From the NCBI RefSeq assembly GCF_002174455.2, contig NZ_CP147246.1:1391501-1455500 (forward strand): a stretch of DNA of 64,000 nt, in the 5' to 3' direction. A program made the translations under genes and the position numbers. This DNA is from Enterococcus sp. 9D6_DIV0238. Its GTDB lineage: Bacteria; Bacillota; Bacilli; Lactobacillales; Enterococcaceae. The notes under the pieces were generated by a model. It ran no database searches. It saw only the letters and a list, made by a program, of their open reading frames with translations, and was not told the origin of the DNA. Positions 55,279 through 59,778 of the stretch are shown piece after piece. The number at the start of each line of letters is the position of its first letter. The first letter of the stretch is position 1.

Positions 55279-56001
55279 TTATAATTTTTTTACTACATAT
55301 CGAAAAACAGCCATTTCTTGTTCTAAATGATCATAAGCAAAATCTGGATGCCACTGTACACCCAAAAAAGCAAAGCTCGGATCTTTACTTTCAATACCTT
55401 CAACAATACCGTCTTCACTAAGTGCTGTAACTTTCAACGGATCAGCTATTTTTTTTACCGCTTGAAAATGAAAGGAATTGACTGTTGTTTCTTCACCATA
55501 GATTTTACGTAAAATACTGCGTTCTTTCGTTTGGATGCGATGGGTCGGTATTTGCCTTGCCACCGGTACCTGCATGTGAGCGATCTTCTTATCTGATACG
55601 TGACTGATATCCTGATACAAACTTCCACCTAACGCGACATTCATCAGCTGCAGGCCGCGGCAAACTGCAAAAATCGGCTTTTTTTGTCTAAGTGCTTCTT
55701 CGATCAAGGCTAGTTCAAATTGATCTCTTTCATCAGAAAGTCCTGCCTCTTTTACCTGAACGCTCTCTCCATAAAGCTTAGGTGATACATTTTGTCCACC
55801 AGCTAGGATCAGTTTATCTATTTGGCTAATATACTCTTTCGCTAAATCAGGAGCACCAACTGGTAACAAAAGCGGCAGTCCACCAGCATTTTGTACCGCT
55901 TTCACATATCCCTGAGGTGTATAGCTGATCGGCAAGTGATACAATGTCGCTCCTGCATCAGTCATTTCATTTGCCGCAATTCCTATGATCGCTCGTTTCA
56001 C
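55279..56001 (-). CDS. Gamma-glutamyl-gamma-aminobutyrate hydrolase family (peptidase C26)
   Basis: 240 residues, class I glutamine amidotransferase fold: nucleophile Cys114 in FAVCRGLQLMN, and HPDFAYD His near the C-terminus in GVQWHPDF. PuuD-like enzymes cleave gamma-glutamyl amides. It precedes the peptide-binding protein gene, suggesting processing of imported gamma-glutamyl peptides (inference). Confidence 0.85.
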   Translation of the reverse strand: MKRAIIGIAANEMTDAGATLYHLPISYTPQGYVKAVQNAGGLPLLLPVGAPDLAKEYISQIDKLILAGGQNVSPKLYGESVQVKEAGLSDERDQFELALIEEALRQKKPIFAVCRGLQLMNVALGGSLYQDISHVSDKKIAHMQVPVARQIPTHRIQTKERSILRKIYGEETTVNSFHFQAVKKIADPLKVTALSEDGIVEGIESKDPSFAFLGVQWHPDFAYDHLEQEMAVFRYVVKKL

Positions 56002-56223
56002 CCTGCCTCACCTCTCTATCATTTCCATTAATAATTGTACATAAGTGTATCAGATACATATAGGAAAGGATAGTAGGAATTGCACAGGGGCGATAGTTTT
56101 TAACTATCACGATTCACTTACTTTTTGATAGAAAGTGTCTACTATAGTGTACCTCACTTTACGCTTTTCGTTAATTTTTATGCCTAGTTCATTCATTTTC
56201 AGAATTTTCTAAACAATATGTTA

Positions 56224-56252
56224 TTGACAATCTTGTCGGCTGGTGGTAAAGT
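56224..56252 (+). promoter_or_regulatory. Promoter of the T-box-controlled transporter operon
   Basis: -35 TTGACA (56224-56229), 17-base spacer, extended -10 TGGTAAAGT (ends 56252). Transcription would start near 56259. Confidence 0.75.
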
Positions 56253-56258
56253 TATAAA

Positions 56259-56512
56259 AAACAAAGAACAGAAGAGTACCTTTATTAGTTCATTCAAGAG
56301 AGTCTTTGGCTGGTGGAAAAAGACAGGAAGATAAAGCGAACCACATCTGGGAGTTAACTTTTTGAACAACAAGTAGGAAAGTTCGGGTATGCTCGTTACA
56401 GCATTGAAGTCAATGACTTCTTGAGGTTATCGTTGTGAGACGATAATAAAAAAAGGTGGAACCACGATTTTACGTCCTTTGGCATTGATGCCAAAGGACT
56501 TTTTATTTTTTT
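56259..56512 (+). promoter_or_regulatory. T-box leader 1 with terminator
   Basis: Stem I region with AGAGAG and GGCTGGTGG; candidate specifier CAC (56342-56344, in GAACCACATC), pointing to histidine; T-box bulge sequence GGTGGAACCACG (56455-56466); terminator GTCCTTTGGCA/TGCCAAAGGAC with a long T-run (56474-56512). Uncharged tRNA would favour the antiterminator. The specifier assignment rests on its position and on the transporter family. Confidence 0.85.
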
Positions 56513-56733
56513 AAGTAAACGGCCAATAAACAAGAACACAATGAATAAAACCAAAACATAGGATCAGAACAAGTACTCCTCGATCATTTCCTGACAGAGA
56601 TTTCTTCATTTGCTGAAAGAAGAAACTGGAAACCGTTGACGAACACATCTGATTTGTCAGTTTCTGAAGTCAGTAAGAAGCTGCGGTATTCTCCGTTATC
56701 AGAAAAGAGTTTTTAAACAGCATAAAACTCTAT
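56502..56733 (+). repeat. Perfect 231-bp direct repeat, copy 1 (T-box Stem I module)
   Basis: 232 bases identical to 56733-56964, tandem and sharing one base at the junction. Holds a T-box-type Stem I with candidate specifier CAC (56644-56646) but no T-box sequence of its own. At its end AGAGTTTT...AAAACTCT (56706-56731) is followed by ATTTATTTTTTT, forming a terminator-like structure at the duplication junction. Confidence 0.9.
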
Positions 56734-56964
56734 TTATTTTTTTAAGTAAACGGCCAATAAACAAGAACACAATGAATAAAACCAAAACATAGGATCAGAA
56801 CAAGTACTCCTCGATCATTTCCTGACAGAGATTTCTTCATTTGCTGAAAGAAGAAACTGGAAACCGTTGACGAACACATCTGATTTGTCAGTTTCTGAAG
56901 TCAGTAAGAAGCTGCGGTATTCTCCGTTATCAGAAAAGAGTTTTTAAACAGCATAAAACTCTAT
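56733..56964 (+). repeat. Perfect 231-bp direct repeat, copy 2 (T-box Stem I module)
   Basis: Identical copy of 56502-56733. Here the same hairpin is followed by GAGGTCAATATTG, leading into T-box 2. Confidence 0.9.
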
Positions 56965-57052
56965 GAGGTCAATATTGTGAGATATTGATAAATTGAGGTG
57001 GAACCACGTATTTTCGTCCTCTTGGTACTTTTTACCAAGAGGATTTTTTTGT
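56744..57052 (+). promoter_or_regulatory. T-box leader 2 with terminator
   Basis: Uses repeat copy 2 as Stem I (specifier candidate CAC at 56875-56877), then T-box bulge GAGGTGGAACCACG (56995-57008) and terminator TCCTCTTGGTA/TACCAAGAGGA with seven T (57017-57050). The permease gene begins 38 bases later. Confidence 0.85.
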
Positions 57053-57089
57053 TTTACTTATTATATAGTCAAAAAATGGAGGAGTTATT

Positions 57090-57731
57090 ATGGAGTATAT
57101 TTTAGAAATCATGCCAGCTTTATTGGATGGCGCAGTAATGACATTGAAGGTTTTCATTTTCACTTTACTAGGGTCGATCCCTTTAGGTATCCTAGTTGCT
57201 TTTGCCTTACAAACGAACTTTAAGCCACTGCAATGGTTGATCAATATTTATATTTGGTTGATGCGGGGAACTCCTTTGCTGTTGCAATTGATTTTCGTTT
57301 TTTATGGGCTTCCTTTGATCGGAATCGTTTTTGAACGATATGACGCAGCCTTATTTGCCTTTATTTTGAATTATGCTGCTTACTTTGCTGAAATATTTCG
57401 TGGAGGAATCCAGTCGATTCCAGAAGGACAATATGAAGCAGCCAAGGTCCTTCGTTTAACTAAATTTCAGACCGTTACCAAAATCATTTTGCCTCAGGTA
57501 GTTAAAGTCGTCTTACCTTCTATTGGTAATGAAGTCATCAATTTAGTCAAGGATACTTCATTGATCTACGTTCTTGGTTTAGGTGATCTACTGCGGGCCG
57601 GAAAAATCGCGATGAGCCGCGATGTCAGCTTACTGCCTTTGGTTCTAGTTGGAATCATCTATCTTTTGTTGACAGCTGTTTTAACATTAGCTTCGAAAAA
57701 ATTGGAAAAACATTATCAGTATTATAAATAG
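57090..57731 (+). CDS. Polar amino-acid ABC transporter permease (HisY-like)
   Basis: 213 residues, four or five membrane helices, HisM/GlnP family: N-terminal LEIMPALLDGAVMTLKVF, WLMRGTPLLLQL and the EAA loop FRGGIQSIPEGQYEAAKVLRL. Imports a polar amino acid; the T-box specifiers suggest histidine. ATG after GGAGG. First gene of a permease-ATPase-binding protein operon. Confidence 0.88.
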   Translation: MEYILEIMPALLDGAVMTLKVFIFTLLGSIPLGILVAFALQTNFKPLQWLINIYIWLMRGTPLLLQLIFVFYGLPLIGIVFERYDAALFAFILNYAAYFAEIFRGGIQSIPEGQYEAAKVLRLTKFQTVTKIILPQVVKVVLPSIGNEVINLVKDTSLIYVLGLGDLLRAGKIAMSRDVSLLPLVLVGIIYLLLTAVLTLASKKLEKHYQYYK

Positions 57732-57765: not shown

Positions 57766-58259
57766 GGTTTGTTCTGCTTTTGCTGAGAATCACAGCGAAA
57801 ATAGTTGAGCTGATGACGAACAGTACAAGACTCTCAAAGAAAGTGTTGATCATTTGTATTATCCAGCTGCACAGGCAAGCTCTTCGGAAAAAAGATAAAT
57901 AATGTGTGAGGCAAAAAGCACCACAAACAGTATTTCCTATTTTTCTGTCAGAGCTGGACAAGCCTGTTCCGCTTTTACTGAGAAACACAGTGAATAAAAT
58001 GAACTGATGTTGAACAGTACAAGACTTTCAAAGAAAGTGTTGATCATTTGTCATATCCAGCTGCACAAATCAATCCTTGGGAAAATAGATAAATTGCCAG
58101 TGAGACAAAAAGCGTCTCAAAGTCAATTTCCTAATTTTCTACAGGATTATGCGATTTGTTCCGCTTTTAATGCTATCCAGCTACATGAGTCAGTCTCTCG
58201 AGAAAAAGATAAAACCTGAATGAGGCAAAGAGCGCCTCAGTCATGTTTTCCTTTTTTCT
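57766..58259 (+). repeat. Three degenerate 110-195-base tandem repeats between permease and ATPase genes
   Basis: Copies begin TTTGTTCTGCTTTT or CTGTTCCGCTTTT at about 57766, 57961 and 58151 and end in TTTCCT...TTTTCT; copy 3 has an internal deletion, and the start motif recurs a fourth time at 58279. Shared blocks: ACAGTACAAGACT, TCAAAGAAAGTGTTGATCAT, ATCCAGCT. A hairpin in each unit changes compensatorily between copies 2 (TGAGAC/GTCTCA) and 3 (TGAGGC/GCCTCA). No gene is supported here. Confidence 0.75.
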
Positions 58260-58309
58260 AGTCGAGACTAAGCGGACTCATTCCGCTTTTAAATCAAGGA
58301 GGAATTTCT

Positions 58310-58945
58310 ATGCTACTTATTAAAAATTTAACGAAAAGTTTTGATGGTCGTAAGATCATCGATCAATTGAATTTAGAAATCAAAGATGGTGAGATTTTAA
58401 CGATCGTCGGTCCTTCCGGCGGCGGGAAAACAACGTTGTTACGCTGTTTAGCCGGCTTGGAATCAATTGATTCTGGTGAATTGGTCATGGATGGTACAGC
58501 TTTTGATCCTGTTGCGATGGATAATGCAGATCAAGTTGTCGGCATCGTTTTTCAGGATTTCCAATTATTTCCTCATCTTTCTGTCTTAGAGAATATCACT
58601 TTGGCACCAATACTTTCATTAAAACAAACGAAAGAAGCAAGTAGCGCAGAAGCTATGGAACTATTGACAAAATTTGGCTTAAGCGGCAAAGAAGACTTGT
58701 ACCCTTATCAATTATCGGGCGGTCAAAAACAGCGCGTTGCGCTTGCCCGAGCGTTAGCAATGAAGCCAAAAATATTGGGCTACGATGAACCAACAAGTGC
58801 ACTTGATCCTGAGTTACGACAACAAGTAGAAGAGGTCATCTTAACGCTAAAAGAGCAAGGAATGACACAAATCGTTGTTACCCACGATATGACATTTGCT
58901 GAAAATATTGCAGATAATCTACTGAAAGTCACACCTGTTCAGTAG
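58310..58945 (+). CDS. Polar amino-acid ABC transporter ATPase (HisZ-like)
   Basis: 211 residues, slightly shorter than typical GlnQ (240). Walker A GPSGGGKTTLLRC, signature LSGGQKQRVALARAL, Walker B ILGYDEPTSALDPEL (Tyr in place of the usual Phe/Leu), and VVTHDMTFA. It energises the permease encoded 578 bases upstream. ATG after AAGGAGGAATTT. Confidence 0.9.
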   Translation: MLLIKNLTKSFDGRKIIDQLNLEIKDGEILTIVGPSGGGKTTLLRCLAGLESIDSGELVMDGTAFDPVAMDNADQVVGIVFQDFQLFPHLSVLENITLAPILSLKQTKEASSAEAMELLTKFGLSGKEDLYPYQLSGGQKQRVALARALAMKPKILGYDEPTSALDPELRQQVEEVILTLKEQGMTQIVVTHDMTFAENIADNLLKVTPVQ

Positions 58946-58959
58946 AAAGGAGAACTACT

Positions 58960-59778
58960 ATGAAGAAAAAAAGACTGTTTACTATAATGACCATTGCTAT
59001 ACTTTTTATTCTGATGATTTCTGGCTGTGGCAGAAAAAAAACTGATGTTGATCAGTGGTCTCGTATCAATCATGAAAAAAGAGTGATCGTCGGATTGGAT
59101 GATTCTTTTGTTCCAATGGGATTTCAAAATAAAGCTGGAAAAATCATTGGTTTTGATGTTGATTTAGCTAGAGCTGTATTTGATCAATACGGTATTGAAG
59201 TTGATTTCCAACCGATCGACTGGTCCATGAAGGAAAACGAACTACAGAATCAAACAATCGATCTGATTTGGAATGGCTATTCTAAAAGTGCCGAACGGGA
59301 AGAAAAAGTCCTGTTCAGTGATGAATATATGAAAAATGAACAAGTCGTTGTTTCATTGAAGAAGAATCAAATCAATAGCTTTGCTGACATGGAAGGAAAA
59401 ATCTTAGGTGCTCAAAATGGCTCTTCTGGTTATCATAGCTTTGAAGAACAGCCAAAAATCTTAAAAGATAAGGTCAAAGATCAAACGGCAATTTTATATG
59501 ATGGCTTCAATGAAGCGTTTATGGATTTGAAATCTGGACGGATCGATGGACTTCTGATCGACCGAGTATACGCTAACTATTATCTTTCTCACGAGGATAA
59601 CTTAGCTGATTATTCAATTATCAGTGGTGATTATGAAAGTGAGGCTTTTGCAGTTGGTTTGAGAAAATCAGATCAGATACTTGCTAAAAAAATCAATACC
59701 GCCTTTGAAGAGCTAAAAAAATCAGGCGAACTTGCAAAAATTTCTACAAAATGGTTTGGAGAAGACGTCACCAAATAA
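58960..59778 (+). CDS. Amino-acid-binding lipoprotein (HisX-like)
   Basis: 272 residues. Signal peptide with lipobox ISGC (Cys23), then the SBP_bac_3 fold: VIVGLDDSFVPMGFQNKAGK, IGFDVDLARAVFDQYGIEVD, WNGYSKSAEREEKVLFSDEY, LLIDRVYANYYL. Extracellular substrate-binding component of the transporter; 14 bases behind the ATPase gene. Confidence 0.9.
   Translation: MKKKRLFTIMTIAILFILMISGCGRKKTDVDQWSRINHEKRVIVGLDDSFVPMGFQNKAGKIIGFDVDLARAVFDQYGIEVDFQPIDWSMKENELQNQTIDLIWNGYSKSAEREEKVLFSDEYMKNEQVVVSLKKNQINSFADMEGKILGAQNGSSGYHSFEEQPKILKDKVKDQTAILYDGFNEAFMDLKSGRIDGLLIDRVYANYYLSHEDNLADYSIISGDYESEAFAVGLRKSDQILAKKINTAFEELKKSGELAKISTKWFGEDVTK

Follow-up and report, generated by a model that had tools for sequence, protein, structure and literature searches.

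The leader and the operon behind it

The window (the whole stretch of DNA that was analysed, 64,000 nucleotides) contains an operon for an amino-acid ABC transporter whose leader extends from 56224 to 57090 on the + strand. This leader comprises a candidate promoter and two complete T-boxes that flank a partial one, referred to below as the orphan. The features are as follows.

56224-56252, + strand: candidate promoter TTGACA-17-TAAAGT, the best + strand match (10/12) in 56000-57200
56255-56482, + strand: T-box 1, complete; RF00230 123.3 bits; specifier CAC at 56342-56344; found in relatives
56474-56512, + strand: terminator of T-box 1 with U-run; -18.6 kcal/mol; terminator score +44.2, the highest in the window
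56502-56732, + strand: repeat copy 1, with the end of the terminator 1 U-run, a spacer and the orphan decoder half; specifier CAC at 56644-56646; without T-box bulge
56706-56743, + strand: junction, copied linker hairpin plus copied U-run; -6.4 kcal/mol; terminator score -25.1; at most a weak terminator
56733-56964, + strand: repeat copy 2, the source of the T-box 2 decoder half
56782-57024, + strand: T-box 2, complete; RF00230 99.4 bits; specifier CAC at 56875-56877; found in relatives
56937-56962, + strand: linker hairpin of T-box 2 in its usual place; compensatory changes in relatives
57016-57044, + strand: terminator of T-box 2; -18.1 kcal/mol; terminator score +43.2, the second highest in the window
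57090-57731, + strand: ABC amino-acid transporter permease, probable hisY; NCBIfam HEQRo_perm_3TM above cut-off, no equivalog above cut-off
58310-58945, + strand: ABC ATPase, probable hisZ*; polar amino-acid ATPase families best, none above cut-off among the best 25 of 190
58960-59778, + strand: substrate-binding protein, probable hisX; amino-acid binding protein families, none of 13 above cut-off

The promoter evidence is weak, with 4 sites in 56000-57200 versus 3.6 in shuffles. The three modules were examined with the Rfam T-box model RF00230, a check that the earlier note had proposed. T-boxes 1 and 2 are above its gathering score of 93. The orphan is matched at 56551-56758 with 62.9 bits (E 2.6e-12), which is below the gathering score and identifies it as a partial T-box. 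Matches to PyrG and PyrR were also returned and were dropped, as they lie far under their own gathering scores. The T-box bulge GGTGGAACCACG occurs at 56455 and 56997, in T-boxes 1 and 2 only (56201-57100 searched), and a terminator follows each. The motif TGGNACC is absent from 56502-56790, and the orphan copy is thus without a T-box bulge and antiterminator.

All three CAC specifiers are followed by A, and the orphan Stem I with its CAC-A is identical to that of T-box 2. CACA is found in all rows of both alignments (25 relatives and the window), in agreement with a His-type specifier of CAC plus a purine. A threonine (ACA) specifier was considered because of the TGGA bulge. It was dropped, since CAC then A is present in all aligned rows and the gene order fits hisYZ*X; read in the alternative frame, the T-box 2 rows have T, C or A after ACA. 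PMC7778990 states that His T-boxes were exempt from discriminator matching and, following that source, the bulge base was not used for the specificity call. The bulge of T-box 2 (56997-57008 in the window) has TGGA except in two of the aligned relatives, L022 and the nearest one, G001 (L157:1717), which have TGGC. The base that changes is the one facing the tRNA discriminator.

The families matched by the operon's proteins are amino-acid ABC families only, and no histidine-transporter equivalog is above its cut-off among the matches listed. The operon probably encodes a histidine ABC transporter, hisYZX, an assignment that is made because of the CAC specifier and the gene order. According to PMC9413887, five Enterococcus species have tandem T-boxes ahead of their histidine transporter operon; the gene order given there is hisYZ*X, as in the window.

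The permease and ATPase genes are separated by a gap of 578 bases, in which about three degenerate copies of a dispersed repeat (57770-58300) lie at a spacing of about 194. A 181-base probe of this repeat gave 82 matches in G001, 70 in G014 and 17 in G006 (40 candidates were scored in G001 and G014). The repeat is often tandem at about 120 or 195 bases, and its match pattern at the locus differs between relatives. The predicted fold of the gap beats those of 100 shuffles (z -4.46), and none of the five Rfam matches falls in it.

The duplicated unit and its counterparts in relatives

Direct base comparison shows that base i equals base i+231 for every i in 56502-56733, with a difference at the flanking position on either side. 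The array of period 231 therefore covers 56502-56964, with 232 consecutive identical positions and no differences between the copies. Tandem Repeats Finder returned the same array (100% matches, score 926); the other five rows in the 64 kb score 61 or less. One T is common to both breakpoints. Past one mismatch, two further bases agree, and for this reason the repeat search draws the array from 56499. Such breakpoints are what a homology-poor duplication would leave.

The unit runs from within the terminator 1 U-run to just past the T-box 2 linker hairpin, so that each end adjoins a hairpin (the terminator 1 stem and the linker hairpin). It contains the spacer, Stem I with CAC, Stem II and the linker hairpin. 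Stem III, the T-box bulge, the antiterminator and the terminator are present only 3' of copy 2. At its right end, base 56964 coincides with the start of family D3, a similarity of 57 bases that the 3' parts of the two complete T-boxes share. The earlier note had described a perfect tandem duplication of 231-bp period, a Stem I module with CAC in each copy, copy 1 lying between T-boxes 1 and 2, and a bulge and terminator after copy 2 only. This description is borne out by the base comparison and Tandem Repeats Finder, by the RF00230 matches and specifier positions, and by the absence of the bulge from the orphan.

T-boxes were scanned with Rfam (E up to 0.01) in 31 of 110 loci from relatives (L001-L030 and L054), each extending about 1500 to 3000 bases past its match. 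Two T-boxes precede the permease in 25 of these, one in six and three in none; among the 25, the second T-box falls just short of the gathering score in six (89-92 bits). All 22 same-genus genomes have two T-boxes at the locus and no third. A third copy as good as the orphan would have been seen, because the orphan's E value of 2.6e-12 is compared with a threshold of 0.01. Throughout these 22 genomes, 21 to 27 T-box matches per genome were found among the matches listed. The double T-box is thus the known normal state, both because relatives have two and because tandem T-boxes are reported for Enterococcus in PMC9413887; only the extra decoder half is new.

A DNA search with the unit found a single occurrence at the locus in each of the 22 genomes (one genome per species), and seven of them have a second short match (24-66 bases) elsewhere. 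The unit is matched over its full length only in G001, which has one copy. Viral contigs searched with the junction gave no match, as expected. The unit differs from G001 by 15 substitutions and 4 gap columns, whereas the two copies do not differ at all. A duplication as old as the split from G001 should, at equal rates, have left the copies with about 19 differences. Given identical copies and a diverged G001, there are three possibilities: a recent event, homogenisation of the copies by recombination, or an artefact of assembly.

The spacing between T-box 1 and T-box 2 is 176 to 302 bases in L003, L004, L009, L010, L012, L013 and L017. Six of these seven long gaps (not L017) share a TACTTGGYGAC-like stretch and, by eye, resemble members of a repeat family. 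Decayed decoders were considered as an explanation of the long gaps (up to 302 nt) and were set aside, as no third T-box is found in them at E up to 0.01, a level at which a strongly decayed one could escape.

The hairpin and U-run at the junction

At the junction, the hairpin AGAGTTTT (56706-56713) / AAAACTCT (56724-56731) is followed by ATTTATTTTTTT (56732-56743), in which 10 of 12 bases are T, including a TTNTTT motif. The hairpin has two G-C pairs and a folding energy of -6.4 kcal/mol, compared with -18.6 and -18.1 kcal/mol for the two real terminators. Of the 25 homologous segments folded, only one is weaker. In stretches folded with the U-run, its pair probabilities are 0.83 to 1.0. A d'Aubenton Carafa-type score is -25.1 at the junction versus +44.2 and +43.2 at the real terminators, the two top values of the whole window. 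Only sites with U-run values of 2.6 or more were ranked, and those within 25 bases of each other were merged. Of the 2002 candidate site clusters in the window (both strands), 218 score above the junction, which ranks 219 to 221. A pattern scan for terminators does not list 56706-56743. An intrinsic terminator consists of a stable G+C-rich hairpin and a U-run; at the junction, the U-run is present and the stable hairpin is not.

Covariation of the linker hairpin was explored in 25 aligned sequences, one from the window and 24 from relatives; of the 25 relatives that have two T-boxes, L022 was left out because of poor alignment at the linker. The proposed partners pair in 85.4% of cells, and there are 32 double-change cells versus 10.4 +/- 2.5 in shuffles (none of 500 as high), although these shuffles ignore relatedness. 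When one partner is shifted by one to three columns, pairing drops to 28-59%, a comparison that generally favours a structure derived from a single row. The outermost pair is broken in 12 of the 25 sequences, and two of five whole-structure measures are no better than shuffles (132/500 and 258/500). At the matching place, T-box 1 has a hairpin GAAGTC/GACTTC, as judged by eye from the alignment.

The earlier note had proposed that the duplication created a new terminator-like structure here. The compensatory changes point instead to an ancestral linker hairpin in T-box 2 of the relatives. Since their T-box 2 also has it, the junction hairpin is not new: it is the old T-box 2 linker hairpin, and the duplication would have supplied only the U-run behind it. 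With the weak fold, two G-C pairs and low score of the junction, an extra intrinsic terminator comparable to its two neighbours, as proposed in that note, is not supported, and hence neither are the suggested three serial checkpoints in the operon.

The orphan decoder and what it may do

The locus is probably an ordinary Enterococcus double His T-box in which one part was duplicated recently and almost neutrally; any attenuation that resulted would be weak and Nus-assisted. The leader would have started as a double His T-box before the probable histidine ABC transporter operon. A recent tandem duplication with almost no end homology would then have added a second copy of everything from the terminator 1 U-run through the T-box 2 linker hairpin, giving the order T-box 1, orphan decoder (Stem I, Stem II and linker hairpin), T-box 2. 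From its identity with copy 2, the orphan would be expected to fold, and probably to bind tRNA-His, as T-box 2 does. Because it has no discriminator, it can presumably neither read charging nor switch. The U-run behind its linker hairpin would form at most a weak, unregulated terminator. The effect would be a leader longer by 231 nt, a few seconds of extra transcription per message and perhaps a slight loss of read-through, and the duplication appears near-neutral. The orphan is unlikely to act as a decoy for the tRNA pool, as tRNA molecules far outnumber leader molecules in a cell. Regulation would remain with T-boxes 1 and 2, both of which the polymerase must read through. Two T-boxes in series are expected to sharpen the response or make it more digital (PMC9413887; PMC12452182).

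The linker hairpin and the copied U-run could possibly form a working third terminator at about 56740 that is aided by NusA and NusG, is independent of tRNA-His and lowers expression of the transporter. This is considered unlikely. The hairpin does form in the predicted ensemble and its U-run carries the TTNTTT motif, and PMC8060035 describes the B. subtilis terminators that depend on NusA and NusG as having the weakest hairpins. In that description, NusG with NusA completes suboptimal hairpins having weak A-U pairs at their base, so real termination at the junction, and with it weak attenuation in vivo aided by the two factors, is possible. The two G-C pairs, the energy of -6.4 against about -18 kcal/mol for the neighbours, the 218 higher-scoring clusters and the omission of the junction from the pattern scan argue against a working terminator. 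There is a somewhat smaller chance that the leader is caught midway in T-box multiplication, with an orphan that aids tRNA capture or adds unregulated attenuation before T-box 2.

It is improbable, slightly more so again, that the second copy arose in assembly, as when contig ends that overlap by 231 bases are joined unmerged. The identity of the copies over 232 bases and the single copy in all 22 relatives would agree with such an error, but the junction contains no N. The unit's ends, beside the terminator 1 stem and the linker hairpin, would fit replication slippage as well, a point that is not decisive. Least probable by far is that two decoders share one discriminator, so that tRNA-His held on the orphan Stem I also reaches the T-box 2 antiterminator and capture of uncharged tRNA is eased, much as in tandem-aptamer riboswitches with one expression platform. 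The orphan does retain the entire decoder half unchanged, and PMC7583486 describes T-box modules as interchangeable. However, a whole folded decoder would have to loop out between the orphan and the discriminator, which the stacked spine of Stem I, tRNA and discriminator described in the same source would make hard, and the arrangement is found in no relative.

Compared with known systems, the nearly neutral duplication favoured here most resembles, in gene order and in its two T-boxes, the tandem His leaders before hisYZ*X in Enterococcus (PMC9413887). It differs from those leaders, as they are described there, in the extra discriminator-less decoder half between the T-boxes. The triple T-box leaders of PMC12452182 (thrS, trp of Streptococcus macedonicus, glnQ and artP) likewise have more than two T-box decoders per leader, but the T-boxes in that account are described as complete sensor and regulatory domains, whereas the middle unit here is incomplete. 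Glycine-type riboswitches, in which adjacent aptamers precede one expression platform (PMC12452182), likewise place two similar sensors before one switch, as the orphan and T-box 2 do; unlike them, the present arrangement has no sign of conservation, and contact between the decoders is hypothetical. In the T-box literature searched, no leader with an orphan decoder is named among the matches listed. Duplication is discussed as a route of T-box evolution in PMC2494555.

If the copy number is real, T-box leaders can grow through the decoder half alone, without a discriminator, and a single duplication can set a structural linker hairpin before a U-run. The locus would then be a natural construct for asking if a discriminator-less decoder is silent, a decoy or an attenuator. 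Provided that the copy number holds, this leader is a snapshot of T-box leader growth.
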